The notes under the pieces: model-generated
The model's database searches: none
What the model saw: the letters and a program-made list of their open reading frames with translations, nothing else
Told to the model about the DNA's origin: nothing
Shown here: positions 16,458 through 51,651 of the stretch, one piece after another
How the letters are laid out: the number at the start of each line of letters is the position of its first letter
How positions within the stretch are numbered: position 1 is the stretch's first letter
NCBI GenBank assembly: GCA_028875075.1
Contig: JAPPGF010000027.1
Coordinates: 1-64,000, forward strand
Direction of reading: 5' to 3'
Length of the DNA: 64,000 nt
Source of the DNA: Gemmatimonadota bacterium
GTDB taxonomy: Bacteria > Gemmatimonadota > Gemmatimonadetes > Longimicrobiales > Gaopeijiaceae
Program-made: the position numbers and the translations under genes

Positions 16458-16469
16458 GTCTCAGTCCCT

Positions 16470-25554: not shown

Positions 25555-26708
25555 GGGCCACGCAGGCCCGAGGTCCGCGACCCTCGTAGCAGCTCTTCCA
25601 CCGTAAGCGAGCAACCGCGCGGCTCGGCTCCCGCGATCCGGCCGAGCACCTTGAATCCTCTTGGCAACGCAACCCCAAGGTCGTCAGTGAGCACGCACGC
25701 GACGGAGCCCGCATTGGCCAAGTCTAGATGGCATAGAAGCCCCTCCCGACCGTCGGCCACCGAACCAAGTGTTATCGGGTCAAGAACGCGAGTCCGTACC
25801 CAGGGCGGCGGCACAAGGAAGCGATCGCTCGGCAGCCCGCGACCGAGATCTGGATGTTTGAGTACCGGCTCGTAGAACTGAGACATCAACTCCGTCATCC
25901 CGTACTCGTTGACAATCATCTCGGAAGGGATGCCGAGGTAGTAGTGGACGCCCGCATACAGTTCGCCGCGCGCTACGGTTCGGGAGCGGCCCTTGAACCC
26001 TCCGGTCTCCATCAACCGTGAACCGTCGGGCAACCGGACTCGCGTATTCCGAGCCTCAAGCAGGTCGAGGACATGGACGAGTGCAAAAGCCGTGCTCACC
26101 ACCAACACCGGACGCGTTCCGCTCTCCGATGCTGCGAAGACGTCGAGCAGTCGGCCCTCCGCCAATGTGCCGTCCGCCCCGGCCAACCACTCGCTCCCCT
26201 GGCCACCAAACGCCGCCATCACTGTCGCCACCATGTGGCTGAGTGACGAGTCGGCAGCGTCCGACGGCGAGGGCATCATCGCGAGCAAGGGCAGGCGGCC
26301 GCCCTCTGGAAGCACGTGCGCCCGAAATGGGGGCAACACAGCGGCGCGGTAGAGGGCGAGGCTCGCTACGGCGTGCTCACCACGGCGGGTCGGACCTCCG
26401 GTCGTGCCACTTGTGCGGAATACCGCTTCGGGTGAACGGCCCGGCTCAAGCGAGCGCAGCCGCACGTGTCGAAACGCGGAGGTTGGCACTGGCGGAATGT
26501 CCTCCCACCTCGTCACGGTGTCAGCCGTGGCGCCGCGGTCGGCGCAGTACCTACGGTAGTTCTCATTGCGAGCGAGCTGCCACCGAAAGACTCGCAAGGC
26601 CCAGCAGTCGAACTCGTCGGGAGGGAGGGGCCGAGCAACCCCTCGCGCGAACAGCGAGGAGAGACCGCGCGCAAGCACGCCGAAGGACTCGCCGGTGGCA
26701 CGCGTCAT
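25551..26708 (-). CDS. luxE: acyl-protein synthetase, LuxE family
   Basis: About 385 residues of the ANL-like LuxE family, which activates a fatty acid as acyl-AMP and hands it, via an acyl-enzyme, to LuxC. Seen: FRTSGTTGGPTRRGEH (adenylation loop), a central FALVHVLDLLEARN block and NEYGMTELMSQFYEPV, typical of LuxE and phenylacetate-CoA-ligase relatives. ATG 26708 is chosen because the open frame to 26768 overlaps the upstream gene. Overlaps luxC downstream. Confidence 0.85.
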   Translation of the reverse strand: MTRATGESFGVLARGLSSLFARGVARPLPPDEFDCWALRVFRWQLARNENYRRYCADRGATADTVTRWEDIPPVPTSAFRHVRLRSLEPGRSPEAVFRTSGTTGGPTRRGEHAVASLALYRAAVLPPFRAHVLPEGGRLPLLAMMPSPSDAADSSLSHMVATVMAAFGGQGSEWLAGADGTLAEGRLLDVFAASESGTRPVLVVSTAFALVHVLDLLEARNTRVRLPDGSRLMETGGFKGRSRTVARGELYAGVHYYLGIPSEMIVNEYGMTELMSQFYEPVLKHPDLGRGLPSDRFLVPPPWVRTRVLDPITLGSVADGREGLLCHLDLANAGSVACVLTDDLGVALPRGFKVLGRIAGAEPRGCSLTVEELLRGSRTSGLRGP

Positions 26709-35424: not shown

Positions 35425-35598
35425 ATGTACGTGCAATTCCCCGAGGGCCCGTTTGCAGCCGATTCGCAGCGTCCGACCCAAGAACCTGCCCAACGGCCGG
35501 AGGGTAGCGTGCTTGACACCTGGTCATCGGTCAACTTCCGTTCAGTCGACTCGGCCCGTCGTGTTCTCTCGTCCGTGGAACCTCCTTCGCCAAGATGA
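35425..35598 (+). CDS. small 57-residue protein coupled to the AAA ATPase gene
   Basis: ATG 35425 has a good ribosome site (GGGAG, spacing seven to nine) and the frame ends in TGA overlapping the next ATG (ATGA), so translation is probably coupled. The peptide starts MYVQFPEGPFAADSQ and ends in a Ser/Arg-rich helix (SVDSARRVLSSVEPPSPR). No family recognised. A TTGACA at 35513 inside it could be a second promoter for the ATPase but lacks a good -10. Confidence 0.5.
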   Translation: MYVQFPEGPFAADSQRPTQEPAQRPEGSVLDTWSSVNFRSVDSARRVLSSVEPPSPR

Positions 35599-37046
35599 CC
35601 GAACTGCGCCCGCGCACCCTCGGCGAACTAAAGGCCGCGGGCTACAGGACGCGCACGATAAGGGACGAGATTCGTTCTAACATCGTGCGCAAACTGCACG
35701 CACGGGAACGGCTCTTTCCGGGCATCGAAGGCTACGACGAGACCGTGGTCCCACAGGTTGTCAACGCTCTGCTGGCCCGACACGACTTCATTCTGCTTGG
35801 CCTGCGCGGTCAGGCGAAGAGCAGGATCCTACGCCAGCTCGTGGACTTCCTGGACGAGGAGATTCCCTTTCTGGCGGGCAGTGAGGTCAACGACGATCCG
35901 CTGTGCCCCGTCTCTAAGCACGGACGCACGCTCGTGCTCGAAAAGGGCGACGACGCGCCGATCGAGTGGCTGCAGCGGGACCATCGTTATGTCGAGAAGT
36001 TGGCGACGCCCGATGTCACGATCGCTGACGTAATCGGCGACGTGGATCCGATCAAGGCAGTCCGGGGAGGGCATGTCCTAGCCGACGAATTCACGATCCA
36101 CTTTGGGTTGCTCCCGCGCGCCAACCGCGGGATCTTCGCGCTTAACGAGCTGCCTGACCTCGCGGGCAAGATCCAGGTGGGGCTCTTCAACATCCTGCAG
36201 GAGGGCGATGTGCAGGTGAAGGGCTACCCCATCCGCCTCCCGCTTGACCTTCTGATGGTATTCACAGCCAACCCAGAGGACTACACCTCGCGTGGTAAAA
36301 TCATCACGCCCCTGAAGGATCGGATCGGTGCTGAGATCCGCACGCATTATCCAGAAGCGATCAAGACCGCTATGGAGATCACGCGGCAGGAGTCATGGAT
36401 CACACGCGAGGGATTGCGCGTGGAAATTCCCGACTTTGTGGCCGAGACCGTGGAACGAATTGCGTTCTTGGCGCGTGCGGACAAGCGGGTCGACCAGCGT
36501 TCGGGCGTGAGTCAGCGCATGCCGATCTCGGTGACGGAGAGCATCGTGTCAAACGCCGAGCGCCGTGCGCTCCAGCTCGGAGAGGAACGCGTCGTACCGC
36601 GTATCGGCGACCTCTACGCGACACTTTCCGCCATCACAGGGAAGATGGAACTGGAGTATGAGGGAGAGCTGCATGGCGCTGCCAAGATCGCACGTGAGCT
36701 CATCCAAGCGGCCGCTCAGCGCACCTTCCAAGATCGCGCCGGCGGCACGGATGTCGAGGCAATCGTTCAGTACTTCGAGCAGGGCGGCGCGCTCCAGATC
36801 AGCGAGGATGCCTCGGCTGCGGCTTGTGTTCAGGGGTTCGAGACCGTGCCTGGACTTCTGGAGCTGGTCGAGTCGGTGGGGCTCGCGACCGCATCCGCCT
36901 CCGATGGCACCCGCGCCGCCGCCTGCGAACTGACCTTGGAGGCCCTCGTAGGCCAACGACGTATCAGCCGCACGCGACCCGGTCGCTACGGGCGGGTTCG
37001 CCGCGATGGTCCAACCGGCAAGGGCTTCACGGGATTCGATTCTTAG
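35595..37046 (+). CDS. magnesium-chelatase-like AAA+ ATPase
   Basis: 483 residues, the family of stand-alone ChlI/BchI-like ATPases that also occurs in bacteria without chlorophyll (for example the mycobacterial Rv0958 type). Walker A is GLRGQAKSR, with Ala replacing the usual last Gly; the Walker B region RGIFALNELPDLAGKIQ has Asn-Glu instead of Asp-Glu, as in that subfamily. Sensor region VFTANPEDYTSRGKIITPLK and DRIGAEIRTHYPE follow. Such ATPases work with a VWA partner as a metal-insertion or protein-remodelling machine; the matching VWA gene lies at 39096, separated by a methyltransferase and by mutY on the other strand. Cytoplasmic. Confidence 0.85.
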   Translation: MTELRPRTLGELKAAGYRTRTIRDEIRSNIVRKLHARERLFPGIEGYDETVVPQVVNALLARHDFILLGLRGQAKSRILRQLVDFLDEEIPFLAGSEVNDDPLCPVSKHGRTLVLEKGDDAPIEWLQRDHRYVEKLATPDVTIADVIGDVDPIKAVRGGHVLADEFTIHFGLLPRANRGIFALNELPDLAGKIQVGLFNILQEGDVQVKGYPIRLPLDLLMVFTANPEDYTSRGKIITPLKDRIGAEIRTHYPEAIKTAMEITRQESWITREGLRVEIPDFVAETVERIAFLARADKRVDQRSGVSQRMPISVTESIVSNAERRALQLGEERVVPRIGDLYATLSAITGKMELEYEGELHGAAKIARELIQAAAQRTFQDRAGGTDVEAIVQYFEQGGALQISEDASAAACVQGFETVPGLLELVESVGLATASASDGTRAAACELTLEALVGQRRISRTRPGRYGRVRRDGPTGKGFTGFDS

Positions 37047-37865: not shown

Positions 37866-39062
37866 TTACATGTTGCCCGAACGGTCTTCAAGGGCTCTAC
37901 GAATCGGCGGCGAATCATGGGTCCTTTCCGGTTGGCCGCCCTCAAGGCCTGGAGAGCGCTCGATCCATGCAGTGACGGCGCGTGCGATCCTTCGGTACGC
38001 CGCAGCCAGGGCCCGCTCTTCGAGCGCTTCCACCGGAGTCCAGGCGTGCCGCGCCGGAATCCCAACGGGCTCGCGCCAATTCGGTGCGCTTGTGTTCCAG
38101 ACAAACGGACGATAGGTCGCACGGAAATGGGAGTAGGTGTTTCTGAATGGCGGAAGCTCAGTCGGTTGCCGCCGGGGCAGCACACCCGCGGCGCGCGCGG
38201 CTCGCGTGGCGGCTGCGAGCACGGCGCGGCGCGTGCAGCCGGGCAACGGAAGGGTCGCGCTGGGAAAGGCCCATAGACCTCCGAGCAGACCGTCCAACGG
38301 CCTGCGAGCAAGCAATAGCTCGGGACTGCCAGAGTTGCCAGCGCGCAGCAGGACGGCGACCGCGATCTCGCGCTCGGGCAGCACGGAGCGCTGCCGGGGA
38401 CGGGGACGTTCGAGGACGGTCCCGAGCGCGCGTGCACGGCATTGCCGAGCAAGCGGGCATCGCGAACAAGCGGGCTGACCTGCCGTACATACTGTGGAGC
38501 CCAGTTCCATGAGAGCTTGGTTGAAGTCGCCCGGGCGCACAGGATCGACGAGCGCAGCAGCGTATGCGCGCAGCCAGCGAGGCGCTGGATCGGCTTCGTC
38601 AGAGAGCCTTGCCAGCACGCGCCGTGCGTTGCCGTCCACCGCGGGCACGCACTCCCCGAACGCGATGCTCGCCACGGCGCCGGACGTGTACTCGCCGAAA
38701 CCAGGTAGCGCGCGGAGCTCCGCGGCGCGGGCGGGGAGCTTGCCACCCATACGGTCGCGGACTAGCAGGGCCGCGCGGTGCAGGTTGCGGGCGCGAGCGT
38801 AATAGCCCAGGCCTTCCCAAGCCTTGAGCACGTCGTCTAGTGACGCGGACGCTAGTGCCTCCAGGTCCGGGAACCGCTCCATCCAGGCCCGGTAGTACGG
38901 GAGGACCGTGTCCACGCGTGTCTGTTGCAGCATCACTTCCGAAACCCACACTCGGTAGGGATGCAGCTCTCCACGCCACGGTAGGGCCCGGTGGCCAGCG
39001 TCGTAGAACTTCAGTATGTCACGGCGCGTGCGCCGTGTCTCCGCCTCCGACATCTCGGCCAT
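37866..39062 (-). CDS. mutY: A/G-specific adenine DNA glycosylase
   Basis: About 398 residues. Removes adenine opposite 8-oxoguanine. Catalytic Glu in SEVMLQQTRV, HhH with LPGFGEYTSGAVASIAFG, catalytic Asp in AVDGNARRVLARL, the Fe-S cysteines CTAGQPACSRCPLARQC (C-x6-C-x2-C-x5-C), and a C-terminal NUDIX-like recognition domain. Start ATG 39062 (MAEMSEAETRRTRR); ATG 39053 is possible. It is divergent from the VWA gene with only about 33 bases between the two starts. Confidence 0.93.
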   Translation of the reverse strand: MAEMSEAETRRTRRDILKFYDAGHRALPWRGELHPYRVWVSEVMLQQTRVDTVLPYYRAWMERFPDLEALASASLDDVLKAWEGLGYYARARNLHRAALLVRDRMGGKLPARAAELRALPGFGEYTSGAVASIAFGECVPAVDGNARRVLARLSDEADPAPRWLRAYAAALVDPVRPGDFNQALMELGSTVCTAGQPACSRCPLARQCRARALGTVLERPRPRQRSVLPEREIAVAVLLRAGNSGSPELLLARRPLDGLLGGLWAFPSATLPLPGCTRRAVLAAATRAARAAGVLPRRQPTELPPFRNTYSHFRATYRPFVWNTSAPNWREPVGIPARHAWTPVEALEERALAAAYRRIARAVTAWIERSPGLEGGQPERTHDSPPIRRALEDRSGNM

Positions 39063-39095
39063 GGCAAAGCTAAAGTAACCCTCCCTGGAGATCCC

Positions 39096-40415
39096 GTGCG
39101 CTTCACGACCTACACGAAGTACATGGGGACCTGGGCGGACGCTGTTAACCTCCGGTCCCTGCTCGACCACCTTTCCGAGTTTCTCCTAAACGGCGGATTC
39201 GCCGGGGGCCCACACTATCACCCCTATTGGGGCTGGTCCGGAACTGAAGAAGACAAATCGCCGCACGCGCTCAAGCGTGCTCTATTCAAGGCGTTGGTCG
39301 AGACCGGCCAACTCACTCCCGAGATGGTCGAGGAACTCAGTGGGGAGGGCCAGGGCGACGCCGACGTTCAGCAGAGCATCGCCGAGCTGCTCGATCGTTT
39401 GATCGAACTATTGGTCGAGGAGGGATACCTCGCTCCCATCCAGTCCGACTTGCCCACGGTCGCGGGCCCCACCCAGCACGTCACGGGCCAGGGTCAAGTG
39501 AACGACCCCAAACAGGCGGCGCAGCAGGTTCAATTTAGTCCGACCCGCAAAGGCATCGATTTCCTGGGCTACAGTGCGCTCAAGAGGCTGTTGTCGGCGG
39601 CGGGCAGATCCGACCTGGGCTCCCACAGCACGTCACATCTCTCGACTGGCGTGGAAACGGAAGCGGTGAGTCGTCCCTATGAATACGGCGACACAATGAA
39701 TCTTGACATTCCTGCTACGCTTAAGAACGCGCTATCACGCGTTCGGGAGGACAGCGACTACGAAACCGGACTCGAGGGTCCCTGGGCGCTCGATTACAGG
39801 GACCTGATGGTGCATCAGTCTGAGTATCGGTCCTCATGCGCCACGGTCCTGATGCTCGACATATCACACTCGATGGTGCTCTATGGCGAGGATCGCTTTA
39901 CGCCCGCGAAGCAAGTGGCACTCGCTCTTTCTCACCTCATTTGTACCCAGTACCCGGGCGACAGCTTGCGCGTGCTCACCTTCGGTGACCGCGCCGAAGA
40001 GATCCCATTCTCGCACCTCGCCAAGGCGCAGGTAGGGCCTTACCACACGAACACGGCGGAGGGGCTTCAGGTGGCACGACGGATTCTCGCCACCCAGAAG
40101 CAGGACATGCGGCAGATCATCATGATTACCGACGGTAAGCCCAGCGCGGTCACCCTGCCGGACGGCCGCATTTACCAGAACTCCAGCGGAATAGACGGAC
40201 TCATCCTGCGACGCACCTTCCAGGAGGTCGCCGAGTGCCGCAAGGCCGGCATCCTTGTCAACACCTTCATGCTCGCCCGCGATCCGTACCTCGTTAAGTT
40301 TGTTCAGGAAGTGTCGGAGGTCGCCCGGGGGAAGGCGTATTTCACCACGACCATCACCCTCGGCCAGTACATTATGATGGACTTCATGAAGCGGAAGCGT
40401 CGCCACGCCACGTGA
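39096..40415 (+). CDS. VWA-domain protein, partner of the chelatase-like ATPase
   Basis: About 439 residues. The C-terminal half is a von Willebrand A domain with the metal-site motif MLDISHSMVLYGEDRFTPAK (DxSxS), a later Thr in the HTNTAEGL region and the TDGKPS motif. The N-terminal half is helical and acidic, as in VWA partners of ChlI/MoxR-like ATPases. GTG 39096 with GGAG eight bases upstream is preferred; the open frame from 38991 runs into mutY. Probably assembles with the ATPase at 35595, by analogy with ChlI/ChlD; no ChlH-like subunit is present in the window. Confidence 0.85.
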   Translation: MRFTTYTKYMGTWADAVNLRSLLDHLSEFLLNGGFAGGPHYHPYWGWSGTEEDKSPHALKRALFKALVETGQLTPEMVEELSGEGQGDADVQQSIAELLDRLIELLVEEGYLAPIQSDLPTVAGPTQHVTGQGQVNDPKQAAQQVQFSPTRKGIDFLGYSALKRLLSAAGRSDLGSHSTSHLSTGVETEAVSRPYEYGDTMNLDIPATLKNALSRVREDSDYETGLEGPWALDYRDLMVHQSEYRSSCATVLMLDISHSMVLYGEDRFTPAKQVALALSHLICTQYPGDSLRVLTFGDRAEEIPFSHLAKAQVGPYHTNTAEGLQVARRILATQKQDMRQIIMITDGKPSAVTLPDGRIYQNSSGIDGLILRRTFQEVAECRKAGILVNTFMLARDPYLVKFVQEVSEVARGKAYFTTTITLGQYIMMDFMKRKRRHAT

Positions 40416-40750: not shown

Positions 40751-40781
40751 CAAGCGTCCTAAATGCCCTGAGCTTTGGATT

Positions 40782-41033
40782 GTGAACGAATTCGAGGAGC
40801 GCACCATCGGCGGTCTGGTCGTGCGCATCGACCGGCTGCTTTGCGTAGGATTCGGCGACTGCATCGCCGAGGTGCCGGACGCCTTGGTATTCGGCGGAGA
40901 GGGTATCGTCACGTTTACCGAGGCCGCCGATGGGTTGGACCGGCAGCAGATCATTTCGGTTTGCGAGGCTTGTCCCGTTGATGCCATCACGGTCTACGAG
41001 AACGGAACGCAAATCGCCCCCCAGAGCGCATGA
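40782..41033 (+). CDS. single-cluster ferredoxin
   Basis: 83 residues from GTG 40782. Cysteine pattern CVGFGDC early and CEACPVDAI late, with the intervening PDALVF, matches small ferredoxins holding one 3Fe-4S or 4Fe-4S cluster (C-x5-C ... C-x3-C; the middle Cys of the first motif is Phe). It overlaps the Mrp-type ATPase gene (ATGA) and probably supplies electrons to a partner in this operon, the radical SAM enzyme being an obvious candidate. Confidence 0.8.
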   Translation: MNEFEERTIGGLVVRIDRLLCVGFGDCIAEVPDALVFGGEGIVTFTEAADGLDRQQIISVCEACPVDAITVYENGTQIAPQSA

Positions 41034-41923
41034 GACGCATACGAACCTACAAGGACGTTGCCGCAGAGGCTGGTGCGGCCGTCGTCACAATTCCCGGACA
41101 GGTGATGGCACAGCGCGAGCGCCTCGCCCGGCGGCTGGCGGACATCGGGGCCGTGGCGGCGATTGCGAGCGGCAAGGGAGGTGTGGGCAAGAGCGCCCTG
41201 ACCGCGAATCTCGCGGTCTCCCTGGGTGCCCACGGACTGCGGGTGGGTGCGCTCGACAGCGACCTTAACGGTCCATCGCTTGCGCGCATGCTCGGAGTCG
41301 TCGGGGCACGGTTCACTGCGGGGGAGAACGGGATGATCCCCCCCATGGGATCCGGTGGAATACGCGTCGTCTCCATGGAACTCTTTCAGGACGGTGCCGA
41401 CGATCCGCTTCGGTGGCGCGGCCCCAAGGGCGAGAGCTGGGCGTGGCGGGGCGTGATCGAGACCGGCACGATACGGGAGCTGCTCTCCGACGTGGCTTGG
41501 GGCAAGCTAGACGTGCTATTCGTGGACGTGGCTCCGGGCACGGACCGCATCGCCAGGCTGCTCGATCTAGTGCCCGATCCCGCGGCGCTACTCCTCGTCA
41601 CAACGCCCTCGGCCATGGCCCGGCGCGTCGTCGCGCGCTCGCTGCGTCTTGCGCGCGAGGCACGGGTTCGCCGAATTGGCCTCGTCGAGAACATGACAAC
41701 TTGGGCCTGCCCGGGCTGCGGAGCCCTCACCGAACTCTACGAGTCGTCTGAGCCGCAGCTCGCCAGCCGTGAGATCGAGTGTTGGGCTGAAGTGCCGTTC
41801 GATCCGAGGCTCGCTCGGAGCACTGACGAGGGCACACCGTTTGTGCTCGCCTATCCGGACGCTCCGGCCGCACGCGCCATCACCGCCCTAGCCACGCGGT
41901 TGAGACGAGAACTCCACTTGTGA
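41030..41923 (+). CDS. Mrp/NBP35-type P-loop ATPase
   Basis: 297 residues. Deviant Walker A GKGGVGKSALTANLA, switch LDSDLNGPSLARMLG, and the C-terminal ENMTTWACPGCG with the CxxC that in ApbC/Mrp binds a bridging Fe-S cluster. Mrp proteins carry Fe-S clusters to apo-enzymes; the fold is shared with BchL. It overlaps its neighbours on both sides (ATGA and GTGA), so it belongs to the ferredoxin/PCP_red operon and may load clusters onto the radical SAM enzyme. Confidence 0.88.
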   Translation: MRRIRTYKDVAAEAGAAVVTIPGQVMAQRERLARRLADIGAVAAIASGKGGVGKSALTANLAVSLGAHGLRVGALDSDLNGPSLARMLGVVGARFTAGENGMIPPMGSGGIRVVSMELFQDGADDPLRWRGPKGESWAWRGVIETGTIRELLSDVAWGKLDVLFVDVAPGTDRIARLLDLVPDPAALLLVTTPSAMARRVVARSLRLAREARVRRIGLVENMTTWACPGCGALTELYESSEPQLASREIECWAEVPFDPRLARSTDEGTPFVLAYPDAPAARAITALATRLRRELHL

Positions 41924-42384
41924 AGTTCCTCTGCGTACCGTGCGACCGGGTGATGGCGTTCGCCGAACGTCACGTTCCTGACGACGGCACATTGACCGTC
42001 GTATTCGGTTGCCCGGGGTGTGGTCGTGAGATGGCGCTGCTCGCTAACCCGTACGAGAGTCAGCTAGTGCGCAGTCTCGGCGTGAAGGTCGGGGGCCGGA
42101 CCGTCCCCGAACAGCCGATGGAACTCATGCGCGGAAGCCTTGAGGGTGGCCGTCCCGAAGCGTTTAACGATAGCACACCTCTAGCCCGCGAGGATGCCGC
42201 GAGCCGTGGCCCAGGACCCGTGTGGAGCCCGGGCGCGCTTGAACGGCTTGAGCGGGTGCCCTCATTCGTACGCGGAATGGTTAAACGCATCTACGTCGAT
42301 TGGGCCCGCCAGCACGGGATCTCGGAGTTTACCCCCGAGGTCATGGACCGGGCACGGAGCGAGCTCGGTCTCGAGGGGATGTAG
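41920..42384 (+). CDS. zinc-ribbon protein with C-terminal PCP_red domain
   Basis: 154 residues. The N-terminus has two cysteine pairs (CVPC and CPGC) forming a probable zinc ribbon. After a linker the last 50 residues (LERLERVPSFVRGMVKRIYV then DWARQHGISEFTPEVMDRAR) match the PCP_red domain, a small helical unit first known from the C-terminus of the B subunit of light-independent protochlorophyllide reductase, where it contacts the tetrapyrrole. GTG start overlaps the Mrp gene. Function unknown; first of three PCP_red proteins in this cluster. Confidence 0.75.
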   Translation: MKFLCVPCDRVMAFAERHVPDDGTLTVVFGCPGCGREMALLANPYESQLVRSLGVKVGGRTVPEQPMELMRGSLEGGRPEAFNDSTPLAREDAASRGPGPVWSPGALERLERVPSFVRGMVKRIYVDWARQHGISEFTPEVMDRARSELGLEGM

Positions 42385-42385
42385 G

Positions 42386-42763
42386 CTGGAGGCGACCCCG
42401 GAGCGGCGGCGCAAGTTCAGGCAGGCAGCCTTCTACTACCTGCACATGGGAGTACTCTACGAGGCTGCGGTCTTCGAGATGGCCCGCCACGGGCTGCTGG
42501 AGGGACGGGGCGGCATCCCCTGGATCTGGCTCCTCGCCGGGGCCGCCATTGTCGTCCTGGTATTCTGGGCCCTCTGGAGCAGGCAGAGCGTCTGGGTGGC
42601 GCGCATCGTCTGGGCCCTCGGCCTGTTTCGCCTGCCGGCCCTAATCGGGGGAGCCTTTTTTCCCGACCCGCAGACGCAGATTGCGACCGATTTCTTCCTC
42701 ATCGCGCTGCTCGTCGTCCTCGGAAATCTCTGGCTACTGGCACGCGCTGGCTGGGATCTCTGA
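42386..42763 (+). CDS. small integral membrane protein
   Basis: About 125 residues with three to four hydrophobic segments (WIWLLAGAAIVVLVFWALW, WALGLFRLPALIGGAFF, FFLIALLVVLGNLWLLARAG). Coding character extends upstream of the first ATG (42446) to a CTG at 42386 that has GAGGGG at good spacing, so a CTG start or ATG 42446 are both possible. No family known to me. It follows the PCP_red gene directly and precedes the promoter region of the next operon. Confidence 0.6.
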   Translation: MEATPERRRKFRQAAFYYLHMGVLYEAAVFEMARHGLLEGRGGIPWIWLLAGAAIVVLVFWALWSRQSVWVARIVWALGLFRLPALIGGAFFPDPQTQIATDFFLIALLVVLGNLWLLARAGWDL

Positions 42764-42794: not shown

Positions 42795-42824
42795 TTGACG
42801 GGTCCGATCAGGCACCGGTATACT
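42795..42824 (+). promoter_or_regulatory. promoter of the PCP_red/cytochrome operon
   Basis: TTGACG (42795-42800), 18-base spacer, TATACT (42819-42824), in a locally A/T-rich patch that stands out in this G/C-rich window. It predicts a leader of about 280 bases before the gene at 43113. Confidence 0.7.
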
Positions 42825-43112: not shown

Positions 43113-45221
43113 ATGTACCGAGAGGTTTTGGTCCCGGTCGACAACTCCGATCCGTCCCACTGGGCAGTCGACCGCGCCATCGAGCTATGTCGACGCTCCG
43201 CCGGCCGGATAACGGGGAACCACGTCTACGCGGCCCGCCTCCACGACGTCCGCTTTCGGCAGCTTGAGACGGGCCTTCCCGCGCAGTTCCAGACACCGGA
43301 AGAGATCAAGCGTCAGCGCAAGGTCCACGACAAGCTGATTGAGAAGGGCCTGCAGCTCATCTCGGACTCCTTCCTAGACCAGACCGAGCAGCGTTGCCAA
43401 GCGTCGGGCGTGCCGATTACCCGCCAACTGCTTGAGGGGATCAACTACGAGGAGATCGTCCGCGAAGCCAACAGCGGCGCTGGCCGGCTCCCTAGTCTGA
43501 TCGGGTTCGACCCCAACATCACCCACAAGTACGACGGCGGGGATATGGTTAGGAGTGATGTGAGGCTAGGCGCGGACGGCCGTATCGTTGAGGAGGACGA
43601 GGAACAGGACGAGAAACTCGCAGGCTCAAGCGGCCGCCACTACGATCTGATCGCAATCGGCGCCCACGGCATCGGCCGTCAGCCCTACAGTCAGCTGGGC
43701 GGGGTCGCGGCACGTGTTCTCCGCCAAGTCGAGAAGGACATCCTGCTCGTGCGCGACGACCGAACCCTCGAGGGCGGCCGATGGATGGTTTGCGTGGACG
43801 GCTCCTCGTACGCCTACAAGGCGCTGCGAATCGCCCTCGAGCTGGCCGAGGAATACAGCGCGAGACTCTACATATGCAGCGCCTTCGATGTCGAGTACCA
43901 CCACGTGGTCTTTGGCAACATCAAGGATGTGCTCTCCATCCAAGCCTCCAAGATTTTCAAGTTCGAGGAGCAGGAGGAGCTCCACAACAATATCATTGAC
44001 AAAGGCCTGCTAAAGCTGTGCCAGGCCAACTTGAAGCGTGCGCGGGTGATGGCTGAGGCCCATCCCGAGGTCGTGACGGACACGCAAGTCCTCATCGGGA
44101 AGCCGTTCCAGTGTATCCTCCAGTGGGTGCGGGAAATCGACCCGACGCTCCTGATCTTTGCACGCCACGGCGGCCACCGGATTGAGGGCACCGACCTGGG
44201 ATCGCAGGCCGAGAACCTGGTGCGGCTTGCACCAACCAATGTGCTCCTCGTCGGCACCCAGGATGTCCGTCCCGACGAGATTCCTTGGATCGAGGAGGAC
44301 GGCGAGAAGGGCCTGGAGTGGGCCCCGGACGCGGAGGCACGCATTCACCGCGTGCCCCCGTTCGCACTGGGCATCGCGCGCAAGGCGGTCGAAGAGTTCG
44401 TGCTCGACAACTACGGTCCAGGAGCTAACGGCACCTACGCGGAAGACGGGCGCGGAGCCGCCCCGCACGTTGACGGCGTTGCAGGCTCGAACGGCGGAGC
44501 ACGTACAGCTTCGATACCGCCGGTTAGCGCCGACGGGTTTCCCATGGTGACCAACCAGCGCTTGGACGAGGCGATTACGAAACTGCTACCCACCCACATG
44601 CAGTTGATCATGGGAATCGGCACGGCCGAGGAGCTGGCACTGGCCGAGGTGAAGGCCGAGGAGGCGATGAAGCGGACCGCCGTGGAGGGATCGGACGCCG
44701 ACGAGGCGCACGCAATGGTAACGGTGAAGTGCCCCTATACAGGGCAGGTATCCACCCGGGCCCGTACCGAGAAGGATTCGATCGTCTGGACGAACGAAGC
44801 GTTCGAGCGACTTCGCGCAGTCCCGCTCATCGCACGTCCGCTGGCGCGCAACACGGTGGAACGCTTCGCGCGCGAGCGCGGCATGTGGCGGATCACGACG
44901 ATGGTAATGGACGAGAACAAGCAGGCCATGGTCGAGGCGGACGAGTTTGACACCGACACGATGCTCGTGATGTTTCGTGAGCTGCAGACCAAGCAGATCC
45001 AGGCCCAGGCGGAAGGCACGGACGGGCTCACTCCCGAGACGCGACGCTTCATCGAAGAGGCGAAGGCGTCCGGCGTCACCCGCTGTCCCATCCGTGACGT
45101 GGTCGCCAAGGCGGATCAGTGCCCGGTCGACCTCAATACCGTCACGCCCGAGCAGGCGCGCGCCGCCGTGGAGGAGTCCATGAAGCGCGAGCATCGCGAG
45201 CCCGCCGGAACGGGCGATTGA
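43113..45221 (+). CDS. double universal-stress-protein with two PCP_red domains
   Basis: 702 residues. Two Usp domains: residues 1 to about 235, opening LVPVDNSDPSHWAVDRAIEL and closing IGAHGIGRQPYSQLGGVAAR, with a large internal insert; and about 240-400, with VCVDGSSYAYKALRIALELA and the nucleotide-loop-like RHGGHRIEGTDLGSQAENLV. Then two PCP_red-like units, near residues 406-440 (ARIHRVPPFALGIARKAVEE) and 560-600 (FERLRAVPLIARPLARNTVE), and a C-terminal tail with two cysteines (RCPIRDV, QCPVDL). Usp domains bind ATP in many cases; PCP_red suggests contact with a tetrapyrrole. First gene of the cytochrome operon; ATG preceded by GCGAGG. Confidence 0.8.
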   Translation: MYREVLVPVDNSDPSHWAVDRAIELCRRSAGRITGNHVYAARLHDVRFRQLETGLPAQFQTPEEIKRQRKVHDKLIEKGLQLISDSFLDQTEQRCQASGVPITRQLLEGINYEEIVREANSGAGRLPSLIGFDPNITHKYDGGDMVRSDVRLGADGRIVEEDEEQDEKLAGSSGRHYDLIAIGAHGIGRQPYSQLGGVAARVLRQVEKDILLVRDDRTLEGGRWMVCVDGSSYAYKALRIALELAEEYSARLYICSAFDVEYHHVVFGNIKDVLSIQASKIFKFEEQEELHNNIIDKGLLKLCQANLKRARVMAEAHPEVVTDTQVLIGKPFQCILQWVREIDPTLLIFARHGGHRIEGTDLGSQAENLVRLAPTNVLLVGTQDVRPDEIPWIEEDGEKGLEWAPDAEARIHRVPPFALGIARKAVEEFVLDNYGPGANGTYAEDGRGAAPHVDGVAGSNGGARTASIPPVSADGFPMVTNQRLDEAITKLLPTHMQLIMGIGTAEELALAEVKAEEAMKRTAVEGSDADEAHAMVTVKCPYTGQVSTRARTEKDSIVWTNEAFERLRAVPLIARPLARNTVERFARERGMWRITTMVMDENKQAMVEADEFDTDTMLVMFRELQTKQIQAQAEGTDGLTPETRRFIEEAKASGVTRCPIRDVVAKADQCPVDLNTVTPEQARAAVEESMKREHREPAGTGD

Positions 45222-45226
45222 ACCCC

Positions 45227-46612
45227 ATGGCGGTGCCCCCGCTCCGTACTACGGGCGCGCCCTCGGGGCTGCTCGACGTGGCATCCCCTGCGCTGGTGCC
45301 CATGGTAGAACCGGCTGCCGCGACGAACCCACGCACCCGCCTTCCCCACGTGATTGCGTGGAACCTCACCCGCCGCTGCAACCTGGCCTGCGCCCACTGC
45401 TACATTTCGGCTGGCCCTTGGCACTCTGCCGCGGGCGAACTCAACACGTCCACCTGCAAGCGGATCCTCGACGAGGTACTGGAGGTCAACCCCGCCCCGG
45501 TGCTGATCCTGTCGGGAGGCGAGCCCCTGCTCAGAGCGGACCTCGAAGAGCTGGCCGAGCACGCGTCCGCTGGCGGTGCAACAGTGGTGGTTGGCACCAA
45601 CGGAACGCGGCTCACCGAAGCGCGAATCCGCTCACTCATGGCCGTTGGCGTCAAGGGTGTCGCGGTGAGCATCGACTCGCTCGATCAGCGCTATCACGAC
45701 CGCTTCCGACACGGCGAAGGTGCACTCGGCGATACGCTCGCCGCGGTGGAGTGCCTGCGCGCGCGCGGGCTTGACTTCATCGTCCAGACGACGGTCACGC
45801 GCGGCAACCGCGGAGAGCTCGCGGCACTCGCTGCGTGGTCGGCTGAGCACGGTGCAGTGGCATTCAATGTGTACTTCGTGGTACCGACCGGGCGCGGCGA
45901 TCGAATGCGTGCGATGGAGCCGGATGAGAACGACGCGGTGCTACGCGACCTCGTGGGGCTGGAGCGGATCTACCGCGGCCGTATGATGGTGCGTTCCAAG
46001 TGCCAGCCCCAGCTCATGCGTCACGCACTCGCGGGCGATGCCGACTCGCCACTCCTGAACTATGAGACCCGCTGCCCCTGTGGAATTCAGTACTGCCGGA
46101 TCACGCCAGAAGGGAAGGTCACGCCGTGCCCGTACACCCCGGTAACGGCCGGCGACCTCACGAAGGCGTCGTTCGGCGAGATCTGGGACACGTCAGTAGT
46201 CTTCCAGAGCCTCCGCACCGGGGCGCTCGGCGGCAAGTGCGGCCGTTGCGAGTTCCGGGCTGTCTGCGGTGGCTGCCGTGCACGCGCGTACGCCGAGGGC
46301 CACGACCTGTTGGGGCCCGACGAGTCGTGCGCGTACGAGCCCACGGGCCAGGTGCCGCTGATTCAGCGGCGGGCCGTCACGTACGGTACTGCGTTCGAGG
46401 CTGAACTCGACTGGGCGCCCGAGGCTGCGGCACGTCTCAAGGCGATCCCCAGCTTTGTGCGCGGCGTGGTCACGCAGCGCGTTGAGAAGTTCGCGCGGGA
46501 GCGCGGCTACGAGCGTGTCGATCTGGACGTGATGGTGGAGGTGCGGAGGGCGATGCCCGTGGATTTCTCGAAACGGTTGCCGTTTTTCCTGAGCAAGGAC
46601 GGTGAGCGGTGA
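45227..46612 (+). CDS. radical SAM/SPASM enzyme with C-terminal PCP_red domain
   Basis: About 461 residues. The radical SAM cluster motif CNLACAHC is near residue 50; LILSGGEPLL is the SAM-binding GGE motif. A SPASM-type Cys-rich region follows (CPCGIQYC, CPYTPV, CGRCEFRAVCGGCRARAY). This layout is that of the NirJ/AhbC/AhbD group, which edits porphyrin side chains in heme d1 and alternative heme synthesis. The last 60 residues are a PCP_red unit (RLKAIPSFVRGVVTQRVEKF, ARERGYERVDLDVMVEVRRA). The fusion of a heme-biosynthesis-like radical enzyme with a tetrapyrrole-linked domain is the strongest functional clue in the cluster. Start 45227 follows the Usp gene by five bases; the longer frame to 45119 is a shadow. 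Confidence 0.85.
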   Translation: MAVPPLRTTGAPSGLLDVASPALVPMVEPAAATNPRTRLPHVIAWNLTRRCNLACAHCYISAGPWHSAAGELNTSTCKRILDEVLEVNPAPVLILSGGEPLLRADLEELAEHASAGGATVVVGTNGTRLTEARIRSLMAVGVKGVAVSIDSLDQRYHDRFRHGEGALGDTLAAVECLRARGLDFIVQTTVTRGNRGELAALAAWSAEHGAVAFNVYFVVPTGRGDRMRAMEPDENDAVLRDLVGLERIYRGRMMVRSKCQPQLMRHALAGDADSPLLNYETRCPCGIQYCRITPEGKVTPCPYTPVTAGDLTKASFGEIWDTSVVFQSLRTGALGGKCGRCEFRAVCGGCRARAYAEGHDLLGPDESCAYEPTGQVPLIQRRAVTYGTAFEAELDWAPEAAARLKAIPSFVRGVVTQRVEKFARERGYERVDLDVMVEVRRAMPVDFSKRLPFFLSKDGER

Positions 46613-48411
46613 GCCGGGTCACTGGCCAGATCGCGCCCGGCACGGCGCTTGTCGTAGCCGTGTTTGTCGCTGCGGTTCCGATGCCCCTGCTCGCGCAGGC
46701 CGCCGAGGGCACTGTCCAGATGCCCATGTACGGGCAATTCCCATACGGCGGCGCCCGCTTCGCGATCTGGATCGCGGCGCAGGTGCACCTGTTCTTCGCG
46801 GCGTTCGTGCTGGGCGTACCAATGTTCGCGGTGGTCGCCGAAGCCATGGGCATCTTCGGTCAGGAACCCAAGTACGACAAGCTCGCGAAGGAGTTCACGC
46901 GGTTGCTCCTGGTTTCGTACTCGGCAACCGCCATCTGGGGTGCGATCCTCGCGTTCGGGCTGATCACACTCTACCCGGGCGTCTGGAGCTATCTCGCCGA
47001 GATCTTCGCCCCCTCCATGTGGGCGTACGTGGGACTCTTCTTCTTCGAGTCGTTTACCCTGTACCTGTATTACTACGGATGGGAGCGCTGGTCTGTCGGC
47101 GGGGCCAAGCTGGGCCACTGGACGCTGGGCATCCTGCTGAATGTTTGGGGTACAGCTGTGATGTTCATCGCCAACTCCTGGCTCACCTACATGATGAGTC
47201 CGCCCGCCGACGTGACACCCGACACGTCCCCCGCCATGGTGCAGTTCTGGAGCGCCTTCGCGAACGCCACGTGGATGCCGATCAACATCCACCGCGTGAT
47301 TGCCAACATCGTATTCGGTGGCGCCATCGTGGGTGGCTACGCGGCCTATCGTTTCCTCCTGGCCGACAACGACGACGAACGCGCCCATTACGACTGGATG
47401 GGCTATGTCGGCAACCTGATCGCCATCGGCGCGCTCATCGTTCTGCCCTTCGCCGGCTACTACCTAGGCCGCGAGATCTACGAATTCAACCAACAGATGG
47501 GCATCACGATGATGGGCGGCTTCATGAGTTGGCTTTGGATCATCCAAGCCTTTCTCATTGGCGTGCTCTTCCTGGCTGGCAACTACTACCTGTGGGTCGG
47601 TATGGGGCGGATCCCGGGCGCAACGCGCTTCCAGCCCTATACCAAGTGGATGCTGCTGGTGCTGGTAGTGGGCGTCATCGTGTGGGCCACGCCCAACACC
47701 ATGATCGCCGACCGCGCGGAGCTGTCCGCCATGGGCGGATCGCACCACCCGTTTCTGGGCGTGCTAGGGGTGATGAGCGCCAAGAACACCGCCGTCAATT
47801 TGATGATCTTGACTACCTTCCTGTCGTTTCTGCTCTACCGGCGTGCCAACAAGCGCCCGACTGTGACATGGGCGAGAACCGGCACACAGGTGCAGGCCGC
47901 CCTGTTCGTGATCTCTGCGGTGATTGTGCTCTTCTACGGCATCTACGGATACTTCGTCACGGCGATCGTGCGGATCGGCTTCTCGGTCTATCAGGTCCTA
48001 GCGGTCCTTTTCGCTATCATCGCCGTAAGCGCGATCGACATCCGCATGATGCGCCGGGCGGAGAGCTACGGAGCAATCCGCTGGGGACAGATGCCGCCGC
48101 GCTCCCAGTACGCCCTGTTCATCTTGATGGTGACATTTACTTGGCTGATGGGGCTAATGGGGTTCGCGCGCAGCGGCATCCGCCAGCACTGGCATGTGTG
48201 GGAAGTGATGCGTGACACCAGCGAATTCGCGGCCACGCCCCCGCTCGGCTATGCCGCACAGGTGATTAGCATATGTGTGCTGATCTTCCTGGGCCTCGTC
48301 GCGTTGATCTTCTGGGTAGGCGGTCTGGCCGAGAAGCCGATCGTCACTCCTGCCCGCAAGGACGCGCTAATGGGTGGGGAGCACGCCACGGCTGCGGTTG
48401 CGGGCGACTAA
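46609..48411 (+). CDS. CydA-like cytochrome bd-type membrane protein without CydB
   Basis: 600 residues, about 14 hydrophobic segments. The N-terminus RFAIWIAAQVHLFFAAFVLG corresponds to the CydA opening with its heme-ligand His, and WMPINIHRVIANIVFGGAIV to the second heme-ligand His region. Similar bd-like proteins are known from nitrite-oxidising Nitrospira as putative oxidases. No cydB follows; three cytochromes c do. So it may be an electron-transfer membrane subunit rather than a classic quinol oxidase. GTG start overlaps the radical SAM gene (GTGA), implying tightly linked expression. Confidence 0.8.
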   Translation: MSRVTGQIAPGTALVVAVFVAAVPMPLLAQAAEGTVQMPMYGQFPYGGARFAIWIAAQVHLFFAAFVLGVPMFAVVAEAMGIFGQEPKYDKLAKEFTRLLLVSYSATAIWGAILAFGLITLYPGVWSYLAEIFAPSMWAYVGLFFFESFTLYLYYYGWERWSVGGAKLGHWTLGILLNVWGTAVMFIANSWLTYMMSPPADVTPDTSPAMVQFWSAFANATWMPINIHRVIANIVFGGAIVGGYAAYRFLLADNDDERAHYDWMGYVGNLIAIGALIVLPFAGYYLGREIYEFNQQMGITMMGGFMSWLWIIQAFLIGVLFLAGNYYLWVGMGRIPGATRFQPYTKWMLLVLVVGVIVWATPNTMIADRAELSAMGGSHHPFLGVLGVMSAKNTAVNLMILTTFLSFLLYRRANKRPTVTWARTGTQVQAALFVISAVIVLFYGIYGYFVTAIVRIGFSVYQVLAVLFAIIAVSAIDIRMMRRAESYGAIRWGQMPPRSQYALFILMVTFTWLMGLMGFARSGIRQHWHVWEVMRDTSEFAATPPLGYAAQVISICVLIFLGLVALIFWVGGLAEKPIVTPARKDALMGGEHATAAVAGD

Positions 48412-48431: not shown

Positions 48432-49238
48432 ATGTGGAAGACCAACCTAAAGATCATCGGGATCGTGATGGGAACGCTCGCGCTCTACACGATCGTCGCC
48501 AACTCGATCCCGCAGGTCGCCTCGGAGGTGCCTGAAGAGCTGACTTTCACCGACGAGGTCAGCACCGCGGAGCTCGTCGCGGCCGGTGAAGAGCTCTACG
48601 GCGGGGCCGGAGGCTGCACGACCTGCCACGGCACGGGTACGCGCGCGCCGAACCTACTCACGGACCACGCAGGCGAGGGCGCGATCGGGACACGCTGTGG
48701 CGACCGCGTGCCCGGAGAGGTTTGCAGAGTCTACCTATACAATTCTCTGGTCGGGCCGGCGGAGTTCGTCCTGGAGGGTTTCCCCCCCATGGTGTTTCAG
48801 GCCCGTACGTTCTCGGACGCACAGTTGTGGGCGTTGGTCGCGTACATGGAATCCCAGGGAGGGGAGGTGACGGTCACGGCAGACGACATCGCGGCCTCAG
48901 CCGACCCCGGCCAGTCGACGGCCGCAGCGGCGACCGAGTCTCCCGCCGGGGCGGCGGCGGTCGCGAGTACGACGACCGACGTGGCCATGCTGCTCCAAGA
49001 ACAGCTTTGCCTAGGCTGCCACGCCATCGACGGCGCTGGACCACCGCTCGGGCCGAGTTTCGACGGCATCGGCGGACGCCTCACGGCCCCCGAGATCCGC
49101 GCCGCGATCTTGGAACCGAACGCGGGCGCCGCTCCGGGCTACGAGGCCATGATCGGTGTCATGCCCACGACCTACGGCCAAGCGTTCACTGCGGCCCAAC
49201 TCGAGGCCGTCGTCTCGTTCCTGGCCGGCCGGAACTGA
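48432..49238 (+). CDS. membrane-anchored diheme cytochrome c
   Basis: 268 residues from ATG 48432: one N-terminal anchor (IIGIVMGTLALYTIVANSI) and two cytochrome c domains with CTTCH and CLGCH, joined by an Ala/Thr-rich linker. Extra cysteines CGDRVPGEVC lie in the first domain. Periplasmic electron carrier associated with the bd-like protein just upstream (20 bases). Confidence 0.88.
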   Translation: MWKTNLKIIGIVMGTLALYTIVANSIPQVASEVPEELTFTDEVSTAELVAAGEELYGGAGGCTTCHGTGTRAPNLLTDHAGEGAIGTRCGDRVPGEVCRVYLYNSLVGPAEFVLEGFPPMVFQARTFSDAQLWALVAYMESQGGEVTVTADDIAASADPGQSTAAAATESPAGAAAVASTTTDVAMLLQEQLCLGCHAIDGAGPPLGPSFDGIGGRLTAPEIRAAILEPNAGAAPGYEAMIGVMPTTYGQAFTAAQLEAVVSFLAGRN

Positions 49239-49249
49239 GGGAGGACCCG

Positions 49250-50053
49250 GTGAGACTTTGGCCGAGCGAACCCTTCGGGCAGACGGTCGCGATCCTCGCG
49301 ATCGCCTATCTGCTGATCGAGCTAGGTATTCCCTACATCCCGCCGCTGTTCGGGCTTGCGAGCGCTCCGGCCCCCGACAGCGTGGTCTTCCAATACATGT
49401 TGACGGTGCTGATGGGTGTTCTGATCTGGGTGAGCGACAACGAGGAGCGGTGGCGTGCGTTCAAGCGTCCAATACAGCGCGTCTTGGTCGAAGAGAAACG
49501 TAAACCGATCCGCGTTGCACTCCTTGTGTTGGTGCCGGTATTGGTGGCATTTATCGCCTTCGACCAGGCTCGTCCTTCTCTTTCGGCTCCACCGTCCTTC
49601 CGCGCCATCCACCCGGCGCCTCCCGGCTCGATGACCTTCCGTGACCGGACGATCCCGATCACCGGACTAGAGAACCCGCTGCGTCACGAGGGTCGTCTCG
49701 AAGCGCACTACGAAGAGGGAAAGCGGATTTACTACCGCAACTGCCTTGTCTGTCACGGAGACCTCTTGGACGGTCAGGGCCCCTACGGGCCGGCCTTCAA
49801 TCCCGCCCCGCTCAGTTTCCAGGACGTGGGCACCATTCAGCAGCTCACCGAGAGCTACGTGTTCTGGCGGATCGCCAAGGGCGGAGCGGGGCTGCCCAAC
49901 GAGGGCGGGCCGTGGAACTCGGCCATGCCCGCATGGGAAGAGTTTCTGACCGAGGACGAGATATGGACGGTGATCATCTTCCTCTACGAGCAGGCGGACA
50001 AGACACCGCGCACATGGGAAGAAGTCGCCGGATCGGAAGGAGGTCCCCAGTGA
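49250..50053 (+). CDS. membrane-bound monoheme cytochrome c
   Basis: 267 residues from GTG 49250, with a strong ribosome site GGGAGG. Two to three membrane segments in the first 115 residues (TVAILAIAYLLIELGIPYI, YMLTVLMGVLIWVSDN, VALLVLVPVLVAFIAF), then a periplasmic cytochrome c domain with CLVCHGDLLDGQGPYGPAF and a probable distal Met in AMPAWEEFL. Overlaps the next gene (GTGA). Confidence 0.87.
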   Translation: MRLWPSEPFGQTVAILAIAYLLIELGIPYIPPLFGLASAPAPDSVVFQYMLTVLMGVLIWVSDNEERWRAFKRPIQRVLVEEKRKPIRVALLVLVPVLVAFIAFDQARPSLSAPPSFRAIHPAPPGSMTFRDRTIPITGLENPLRHEGRLEAHYEEGKRIYYRNCLVCHGDLLDGQGPYGPAFNPAPLSFQDVGTIQQLTESYVFWRIAKGGAGLPNEGGPWNSAMPAWEEFLTEDEIWTVIIFLYEQADKTPRTWEEVAGSEGGPQ

Positions 50054-51651
50054 CGCGCACGATTCTGCTGGCAGTCCCGGTGCTTGCGCTTGCGTCACTC
50101 TCGACGACCGCTGCCTCGGCTGACGCCCAGGACCAGGAGCTCTCGCTCGGCAAGGATGTCTACGATCGCTGGTGCGCGGGCTGCCACGGCGTGGACGGCG
50201 CTGGGGCCGGGCCCGGCGCCGCAACAATGCTACCGCGCCCGCGTGACTTCACACGGGCGCAGTATCAAGTCCGCACGACCGGCACCGGCGAGTTGCCGAC
50301 CGACGCGGACATTATGCACGTCATAGACGTGGGGATGCCAGGAACGGCGATGCCCGGATGGGAGGATGCACTTAGCCGTGATGAGCGCGAGGCGTTGGTG
50401 GCGTATCTTAAGAGTTTCTCGCGCTTCTTCGAGAGCGGTCCAGAGCCGACCCCGCTCGAGTTCGGTAGCGCCCCGAGCAGCAGTGAGGCGACCATCACGG
50501 AGGGAGCGAGACTTTATCAGGAGATCGAGTGCTGGCAGTGCCACGGGCAGGCGGGGCGCGGGGACGGCAGCGCCGCAGCCACGCTCGACGACGACCTTGG
50601 GTTTCCCAACTACGCGGCCGACCTGACGCGGAACTGGCTGTTTAACGGAGGCGGCGCGGTCGAGGACATCTACCGCGTCCTCCGCACGGGCCTGGACGGC
50701 ACACCGATGCCCACGTTCAGCGACCTTATAGAGTCGGACATTGTCACTGATGATCAGCTCTGGAGCCTAGCGCACTACGTCAGGAGCCTGTCCCCCGCCC
50801 GGGCACCCGCGGTGCGCGAGGTGATCACGGCGACGCTTGACGAATCGGAGCTGCCGTCGACGCCGGATGACGAGCGGTGGGCCAGTGTCCAGCCGTTCTA
50901 TGTGCCGCTCGCTGGGCAAGTCATCGTCAAGCCGCGCTGGTTCTCACCACGTGTGACGAACATCTGGGTGCGTGCGCTCCACGACGGCGAAGATGTGGTG
51001 CTCCTCGTGAGCTGGACCGATCCAACGCAAAGCCCCAGCTCGGACCCCGACTGGGCGAGCTTCGCACAGCGTGTGGTCGATACCATGGAGCCCAAGGACG
51101 AAGGATCGACCTGGGAGCCGGGCGCTCCCGATCGCCTCGTGGTGCAGTTTCCACAGACGCTCCCCTCGGGGCTCGAGCGTCCGCATTTCCTGCAGGGGGA
51201 CGCCCGCCGCCCGGCCTATCTCTGGAGCTGGAGCAGCGAGGAGGATCGGGCGGTGGAGATGGTGGCGGAGGGACTGGCGACCGGCCAGCAACAGCCGGAC
51301 GAGAACCAGCAGCTGAGCGCCGTCTCGACCTGGTCGGAGGGCGAGTGGCGCGTCCTGTTTCGACGTCCGCTCATGACGCCGGACATTGCCGCCGATCTTC
51401 AGTTACCCTTGGCGACTGCGGTCCCGATCGCGTTCCAAGCGTGGGACGGCGACAACGGTGAGGCCGGCAAGCAGAACGCAGTCAGCACATGGTACTTCTT
51501 GGCGCTCGAGGAAGCGACTCCGGCCACCGTGTTCATGGCGCCCGTTGCAGCGTTCGTGTTAACCGCGGCCTTCGGGCTAGGTGTCGTCGCGCGCGCCCAG
51601 AGGCGATACACGGAAGCGGAAGAGCGAGCCGGCCAGGCCGGCGGCGCATAG
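50050..51651 (+). CDS. diheme cytochrome c fused to an ethylbenzene-dehydrogenase-type heme-binding domain
   Basis: 533 residues. Signal peptide (ILLAVPVLALASLSTTAASA), two cytochrome c domains (CAGCHG and CWQCHG), then an EB_dh domain such as in the heme b-binding gamma subunits of DMSO-reductase-family enzymes (VTNIWVRALHDGEDVVLLVS, then DRLVVQFPQTLPSGLERPHF and LQGDARRPAYLWSW), and a C-terminal membrane helix. It could carry two c hemes and one b heme in the periplasm. No catalytic molybdoenzyme subunit is in the cluster. Confidence 0.85.
   Translation: MTRTILLAVPVLALASLSTTAASADAQDQELSLGKDVYDRWCAGCHGVDGAGAGPGAATMLPRPRDFTRAQYQVRTTGTGELPTDADIMHVIDVGMPGTAMPGWEDALSRDEREALVAYLKSFSRFFESGPEPTPLEFGSAPSSSEATITEGARLYQEIECWQCHGQAGRGDGSAAATLDDDLGFPNYAADLTRNWLFNGGGAVEDIYRVLRTGLDGTPMPTFSDLIESDIVTDDQLWSLAHYVRSLSPARAPAVREVITATLDESELPSTPDDERWASVQPFYVPLAGQVIVKPRWFSPRVTNIWVRALHDGEDVVLLVSWTDPTQSPSSDPDWASFAQRVVDTMEPKDEGSTWEPGAPDRLVVQFPQTLPSGLERPHFLQGDARRPAYLWSWSSEEDRAVEMVAEGLATGQQQPDENQQLSAVSTWSEGEWRVLFRRPLMTPDIAADLQLPLATAVPIAFQAWDGDNGEAGKQNAVSTWYFLALEEATPATVFMAPVAAFVLTAAFGLGVVARAQRRYTEAEERAGQAGGA

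Follow-up and report, generated by a model that had tools for sequence, protein, structure and literature searches.

The gene at positions 43113–45221 (+) of the window, by which we mean the whole 64,000-nucleotide stretch of Gemmatimonadota DNA that was analyzed, encodes a fusion protein of 702 aa (P0001). It is a soluble bacterial protein composed of tandem Usp domains, two PCP_red modules, and an invariant tail with two cysteines. Since the fusion always accompanies one poorly understood bd-like respiratory cytochrome, its role is probably that of a helper in building or loading the heme cofactors of this cytochrome. More specifically, we give about an even chance to an ATP-binding scaffold or chaperone that works with a radical-SAM protein, a ferredoxin, and an Mrp-type Fe-S ATPase in maturing or inserting the tetrapyrrole which the bd-like complex has as cofactor, by a mechanism that we infer below. 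Usp and PCP_red are each known singly, whereas no paper that we found describes the two joined in one protein or the respiratory operon dedicated to it. Our search of the literature, the coverage of which was incomplete, retrieved no published account of a Usp-PCP_red fusion or of PF08369 outside phototrophy, in agreement with the original prediction that no function has been described for such a protein.

The open reading frame is real, as 22 orthologues (71–83% identity) align with it over the full length and begin with the identical start MYREV; full-length identity among the fusion orthologues ranges from 66 to 83%. The predicted architecture, a Usp protein joined to two PCP_red units, was borne out by Pfam, by the orthologues, and by the folds. 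Among the 37 loci with all genes compared, the mean pairwise distance amounts to 0.23 for the CydA-like protein, 0.26 for the fusion, 0.29 for COX1, and 0.34 for the radical-SAM protein, i.e., the fusion is better conserved than COX1 and ranks behind the CydA-like protein alone. Judged by these distances, the constraint is very strong for a soluble accessory protein. Invariant elements of the orthologue alignment are His263/264, the motif FEEQxxLHxxIID, and three cysteines conserved in 52 of 52 aligned sequences: Cys540 (44730–44732, +), predicted to lie in a beta hairpin between both PCP_red modules, and C658 and C670 (RCPIRD...CPVD; 45084–45122, +), which form the two-cysteine tail already noted in the original prediction. 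A 1170-aa ORF at locus L039 was considered as a fusion of the USP and radical-SAM genes and rejected: the match to its radical-SAM core does not start until profile position 77, which probably reflects a frameshift.

The fusion scores 108.5 bits for the Usp family (PF00582), where the cut-off is 24; scored separately, both halves exceed the cut-off (56.6 and 65.3 bits). Usp domain 1 (approximately residues 1–217; 43113–43763, +) carries D10 and G183-2x-G186-9x-G196-G197. Usp domain 2 (approximately residues 223–382; 43779–44258, +) carries D229 and G353-9x-G363-S364, and also harbors the conserved histidines and the FEEQxxLHxxIID motif. All of these Asp, Gly, and Ser positions are invariant (52/52). 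Across the 52 sequences, the nucleotide motif is altered in both domains: in Usp-1, GG replaces GS, i.e., the S/T position is occupied by G, and in Usp-2 the first G is mostly A. The GS is present in the Usp-1 motif of L134, one of two shorter orthologues (L133 and L134; 560–570 aa, 52–54% identity) that represent family f9. The large insert that had been predicted for one of the Usp domains was found in Usp-1 (approximately residues 121–174; 43473–43634, +; alignment A1). It is lineage-specific, and since the f9 form lacks both this insert and the linker of the first PCP_red module, these two elements are dispensable.

An AlphaFold2 model of the fusion, built on 52 orthologues, has a mean pLDDT of 73, with values mostly above 90 in the Usp core, and consists of a tandem Usp followed by helical modules. 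Its best PDB matches in Foldseek (E 4.6e-16) are Rv2623, ATP-bound TTHA0350, and UspE, with TM-scores to the target of mostly 0.7–0.85. Like these tandem Usps, the fusion has two Usp domains per chain and keeps the Asp and, in altered form, most of G-2x-G-9x-G(S/T). It differs from them by the two PCP_red modules, the C-terminal helices, the invariant cysteines, and the large Usp-1 insert, as well as by its location in the operon of a respiratory complex. From model and motifs, nucleotide binding by the tandem Usp half is plausible.

The remainder of the protein accounts for the PCP_red assignment (PF08369), which covers two stretches with 61.8 bits in total against a cut-off of 32.5. Module 2 (residues 559–603; 44787–44921, +) passes the cut-off by itself, with 43.6 bits alone and 45.9 bits in the genome search. 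Module 1 (approximately residues 403–491; 44319–44585, +) yields a partial match of only 28.4 bits (residues 403–430, profile positions 1–28), because the domain is interrupted by a variable linker. This hypervariable, G/N/A-rich segment (approximately residues 436–476; 44418–44540, +; alignments A1 and A3) is mostly modeled with pLDDT below 50. When it is deleted, module 1 matches profile positions 1–44 of 45 with 32.6 bits, and in the L084 orthologue, which lacks the linker, the same positions 1–44 match directly as one contiguous domain and both copies total 70.6 bits. Copy 1 is thus a split full-length module. Both originally predicted segments are real; the range of residues 400–450 proposed for the first was too short, as copy 1 resumes at about residue 477 and extends to about 491.

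For a structural comparison with the PDB by Foldseek, the C-terminal half was modeled from the linker-free L084 sequence. The two top matches are the PCP_red domains 2kru and 2l09 (TM-scores to the target 0.80 and 0.68), the former with an rmsd of 1.0 over 53 columns. Their E-values are weak (0.0095 and 0.017) because the domain is small, with about 60 residues. The predicted model has the three-helix fold of 2kru and 2l09. The outcome that would have refuted the original prediction, i.e., no PCP_red score for either segment and Usp folds only, did not occur: module 2 exceeds the Pfam cut-off, module 1 is complete though split, and the modeled C-terminal half resembles known PCP_red structures. 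Along the same line, the sequence profile of alignment A3 matches 2l09 and BchB chains when compared with the PDB. An AAA+ lid domain (RuvB) was rejected as an interpretation of the C-terminal half (Foldseek E about 0.4, not significant).

The genome contains four PCP_red stretches, every one of them in this one operon and within 4.3 kb: one in a small ribbon protein, two in the fusion, and one at the C-terminus of a radical-SAM protein. Immediately upstream of the fusion gene and on the same strand are genes for a 4Fe-4S ferredoxin (40773–41033, +; PF13459), an Mrp/NBP35-type Fe-S carrier ATPase (41030–41923, +; PF10609, 208 bits), the small protein with a zinc-ribbon-like CxxC/CxxC ribbon and PCP_red (41920–42384, +; Pfam), and a small membrane protein without Pfam match that the neighborhood search identified as conserved in the module (42443–42763, +). 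An AAA ATPase, MoxR-like by its size and its pairing with a VWA protein (35595–37046, +), and this CoxE-like VWA protein (38991–40415, +; Pfam and neighborhood search) are linked in a subset of loci.

The fusion gene is followed after a gap of 5 bp by the gene of a radical SAM/SPASM protein (45227–46612, +; PCP_red at 46412–46543; Pfam, NCBIfam, and genome search), which overlaps by 4 bp with that of a divergent cytochrome-bd-like CydA subunit of 600 aa (46609–48411, +). The latter assignment is derived from Pfam (67.9 bits), bd-oxidase matches in the PDB, and co-occurrence. Three cytochrome c genes come next, encoding a protein with two heme-binding domains (48435–49238, +; Pfam), a conserved membrane-anchored protein whose CxxCH was read directly in the sequence (49232–50053, +), and a protein that combines cytochrome c with an ethylbenzene-dehydrogenase-type heme b domain (50047–51651, +; Pfam); a heme-copper cytochrome oxidase lies downstream on the same strand. 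The claim that the fusion gene leads the cytochrome operon holds in part. It is preceded by a 349-bp gap with a sigma-70-like promoter match (42795–42824, +; 10/12 match, 0.1 expected) and opens the series USP, radical-SAM, CydA; on the other hand, the ferredoxin, Mrp, small PCP_red, and membrane protein genes stand immediately before it on the same strand.

The gene order ParA, small PCP_red, ferredoxin/membrane protein, USP, radical-SAM, CydA, cytochromes, and COX is kept over dozens of loci, with occasional inserted genes. These loci were taken from GTDB genomes and are almost all labeled Gemmatimonadota, apart from a few Gammaproteobacteria and one Rokubacteriota. The same operon in MAG loci with the latter two labels (L052, L055, L056, L060, and L112; 74% identity for Gammaproteobacteria, 66% for Rokubacteriota) indicates either mislabeled or mis-binned MAGs, or horizontal transfer. 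In about 33 loci, the small PCP_red gene is separated from the fusion gene by genes for an ABC ATPase and an ABC-2-like permease (e.g., L041:8858–9568, L047:7839–8840). The pair is a possible exporter of heme or a cofactor; an assignment as CcmAB was discarded, as the top-scoring families are generic and the ccmA cut-off is not reached.

In accordance with this linkage, the fusion strictly co-occurs with the CydA-like subunit of the presumed target complex. Among 200 genomes of the phylum, 50 contain the fusion and 51 the CydA-like gene, and 50 contain both (Fisher P 1e-46, genome relatedness not corrected for). The sole mismatch, G089, is due to a contig break, where the CydA contig starts inside the fusion gene (residues 625–691). 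Within the 59 nearest relatives, fusion and CydA-like gene agree in 24 of 25 cases each way, G053 being explained by a contig edge. In G032 (60% complete; L125), the only CydA type is a second one, of 46% identity. In G008 (L124:10700–17730), a second CydA-like/cytochrome c cluster, about 50% identical, is located directly upstream of the fusion gene. Weaker CydA matches (about 21–30% identity) also turn up where the fusion is absent and are probably canonical bd oxidases. In G197, the contigs are broken (L118 and L119) and carry genes for the ferredoxin, Mrp, the small PCP_red protein, and the radical-SAM-PCP_red protein; no match to fusion or CydA-like protein was obtained there at the thresholds used, and G262 and G362 of the same family have both. 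The original idea of a sensor of ATP or redox state did not find support. Given a conservation above that of COX1 and the strict 1:1 relation with the CydA-like gene, an obligate maturation or structural factor would fit better than a peripheral sensor. By itself, the co-occurrence would be equally compatible with a structural subunit or a regulator.

The CydA-like protein resembles the OR-type bd-like CydA of PMC10839748 and PMC12342949, both of which cite Murali et al. 2021 as a source, in being a divergent CydA homologue with cytochrome c partners; the comparison was made with the OR type as a whole, which comprises OR-C and OR-N. In the portions of these two papers that treat OR-type CydA, such oxidases are characterized as widespread and biochemically uncharacterized, and there is no mention of a Usp-PCP_red partner. 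A dedicated maturation module, if confirmed, would provide a handle on the cofactors of OR-type bd-like oxidases and on their production.

Heme biosynthesis forms a further part of the genomic context. Of 53 loci whose upstream sequence extends for at least 9 kb, 23 contain genes of the set HemA/B/C/D/E/L/Y at most 10 kb upstream, arranged as HemB-E-Y-L, HemA-B, HemC, HemY-D-B-E-L, or HemA-E-Y; 30 of the 53 have none there, and none occurs in the window. Representatives of HemA, B, C, E, L, and Y score above the NCBIfam cut-offs, and the HemD match remains below its own. The radical-SAM neighbor points in the same direction. It consists of radical-SAM and SPASM parts, and its nearest NCBIfam relatives are NirJ2 (280 bits) and AhbD (270 bits). 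Unlike these, it falls below the family cut-offs (500 for both) and carries a C-terminal PCP_red, and its genome encodes HemQ, as do most relatives with the fusion module. Ordinary heme b thus need not depend on the radical-SAM protein, and we rejected a role as housekeeping heme b synthase. The original prediction had linked the fusion to a cytochrome operon and to tetrapyrroles: the former is confirmed, and the latter agrees with the adjoining heme genes in many relatives and with the heme-type, PCP_red-carrying radical-SAM neighbor.

Taken together, the fusion would act as a cytoplasmic biogenesis factor dedicated to the bd-like cytochrome complex. Judging from its fold and motifs, the tandem Usp half would bind or respond to nucleotide and thereby change its state. 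The PCP_red modules of the fusion, like those of the small zinc-ribbon protein and of the radical-SAM protein, would serve to dock the components together and/or to hold a tetrapyrrole; contact with a tetrapyrrole is conceivable because the BchB subunit of DPOR terminates in this domain. Fe-S clusters and electrons may come from the Mrp ATPase and the ferredoxin. Heme, or else a polypeptide, would be modified by the NirJ/AhbD-like radical-SAM protein, and the product would be kept by the Usp-PCP_red scaffold or delivered by it to the CydA-like subunit. Points that speak against this reading are the degeneracy of both nucleotide motifs, the lack of upstream heme genes in 30 of the 53 loci and in the window, and the sub-threshold NirJ2 and AhbD scores of the radical-SAM protein. 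A further step is tentative and finds limited credence with us: the operon might encode an undescribed cofactor-maturation machine, in which three adjacent proteins dock through their PCP_red modules round a heme intermediate and the Usp scaffold, gated by ATP, passes the radical-SAM-modified heme to the bd-like complex. If so, PCP_red would serve generally, and outside chlorophyll synthesis, as a module for docking or for handling tetrapyrroles.

A second explanation, possible though on the whole unlikely, is that the fusion is itself a permanent, nucleotide-responsive regulatory or structural subunit on the cytoplasmic face of the bd-like complex, with a Usp pair similar to those of TeaD, KdpD, or KCC and with PCP_red contacting the membrane part. 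Usp folds attach to membrane proteins elsewhere, and the Foldseek matches of the fusion model include TeaD as well as KCC/NKCC chains, the latter, however, with low TM-scores. The strict 1:1 occurrence, the very high conservation, and the position of the f9 fusion gene directly before the CydA-like gene would suit a subunit well, yet such a role leaves unexplained why PCP_red is common to the radical-SAM and ribbon proteins and why heme genes recur in the neighborhood.

More doubtful is a scaffold for radical-SAM modification of a polypeptide, e.g., a crosslink or thioether in cytochrome subunits, with PCP_red serving for docking only and no tetrapyrrole involved. Since the radical-SAM protein scores below the NirJ2 and AhbD cut-offs, its substrate could be a peptide; proteins of the SPASM radical-SAM type often mature peptides, its PDB matches include PqqE and SkfB, and PCP_red in three adjacent proteins resembles a docking set. 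However, NirJ2 and AhbD, its best NCBIfam relatives, are heme enzymes, and the linkage to hem genes is recurrent.

We attach hardly any weight to the fusion as a remnant or relative of the (bacterio)chlorophyll pathway, related to DPOR. PCP_red is the C-terminal domain of BchB/ChlB, a subunit of the tetrapyrrole-reducing DPOR, and the fusion has the same 45-residue domain, above the Pfam cut-off and with 2kru as best structural match. In contrast to BchB/ChlB, Pfam reveals Usp and PCP_red only and no nitrogenase-like catalytic part (Oxidored_nitro), two PCP_red copies are joined to Usp, and the host is non-phototrophic. A search for the photosynthetic reaction centre (PF00124) found none in this Gemmatimonadota genome, and only two of the 50 fusion-carrying genomes have such a gene; PCP_red here is thus no trace of chlorophyll synthesis. 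In most PCP_red-bearing genomes of the phylum, the domain resides in this respiratory operon and a reaction centre is missing. PF08369 served as a pre-screen for phototrophy in PMC12815261, a use to which the 48 of 50 operon-bearing genomes without a reaction-centre gene stand opposed. The fusion operon takes PCP_red beyond chlorophyll biology. Usp proteins are common and their role is often unclear, but an ordinary stress or dormancy Usp that gained PCP_red by chance and is merely co-transcribed is highly improbable in view of the full-length conservation, the co-occurrence in 50 of 51 genomes, and the phylum-wide gene order.

A divergent homologue bears on the proposed maturation role. In G073 (L120:8126–9643, −), a protein that combines three PCP_red modules with a Usp domain and a HypA-like ribbon partly retains the FEEQxxLHxxIID motif. 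ParA, small PCP_red, and radical-SAM genes share its contig of 9.6 kb, the USP gene lying about 6 kb off, and no CydA-like match was found in this 98% complete genome at E<=1e-20. This points to the maturation module as the core partner of the homologue and suggests, as a lead from one short contig, that the fusion may belong primarily to this module and that its target can vary.

Two further features of the window concern genes on the opposite strand. Alternative complex III-like genes at 15138–22107 (−) encode a 1022-aa molybdopterin/FeS ActB-like protein, an NrfD/ActC-like protein, a cytochrome c, and a 439-aa ORF without Pfam match. A bc1-type cytochrome b (PF00033) was not found in the genome, and the notion that the bd-like complex substitutes for a missing complex III was dropped in view of the alternative complex III genes that the window contains. 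A LuxC-type acyl-CoA reductase is encoded at 24151–25614 (−).
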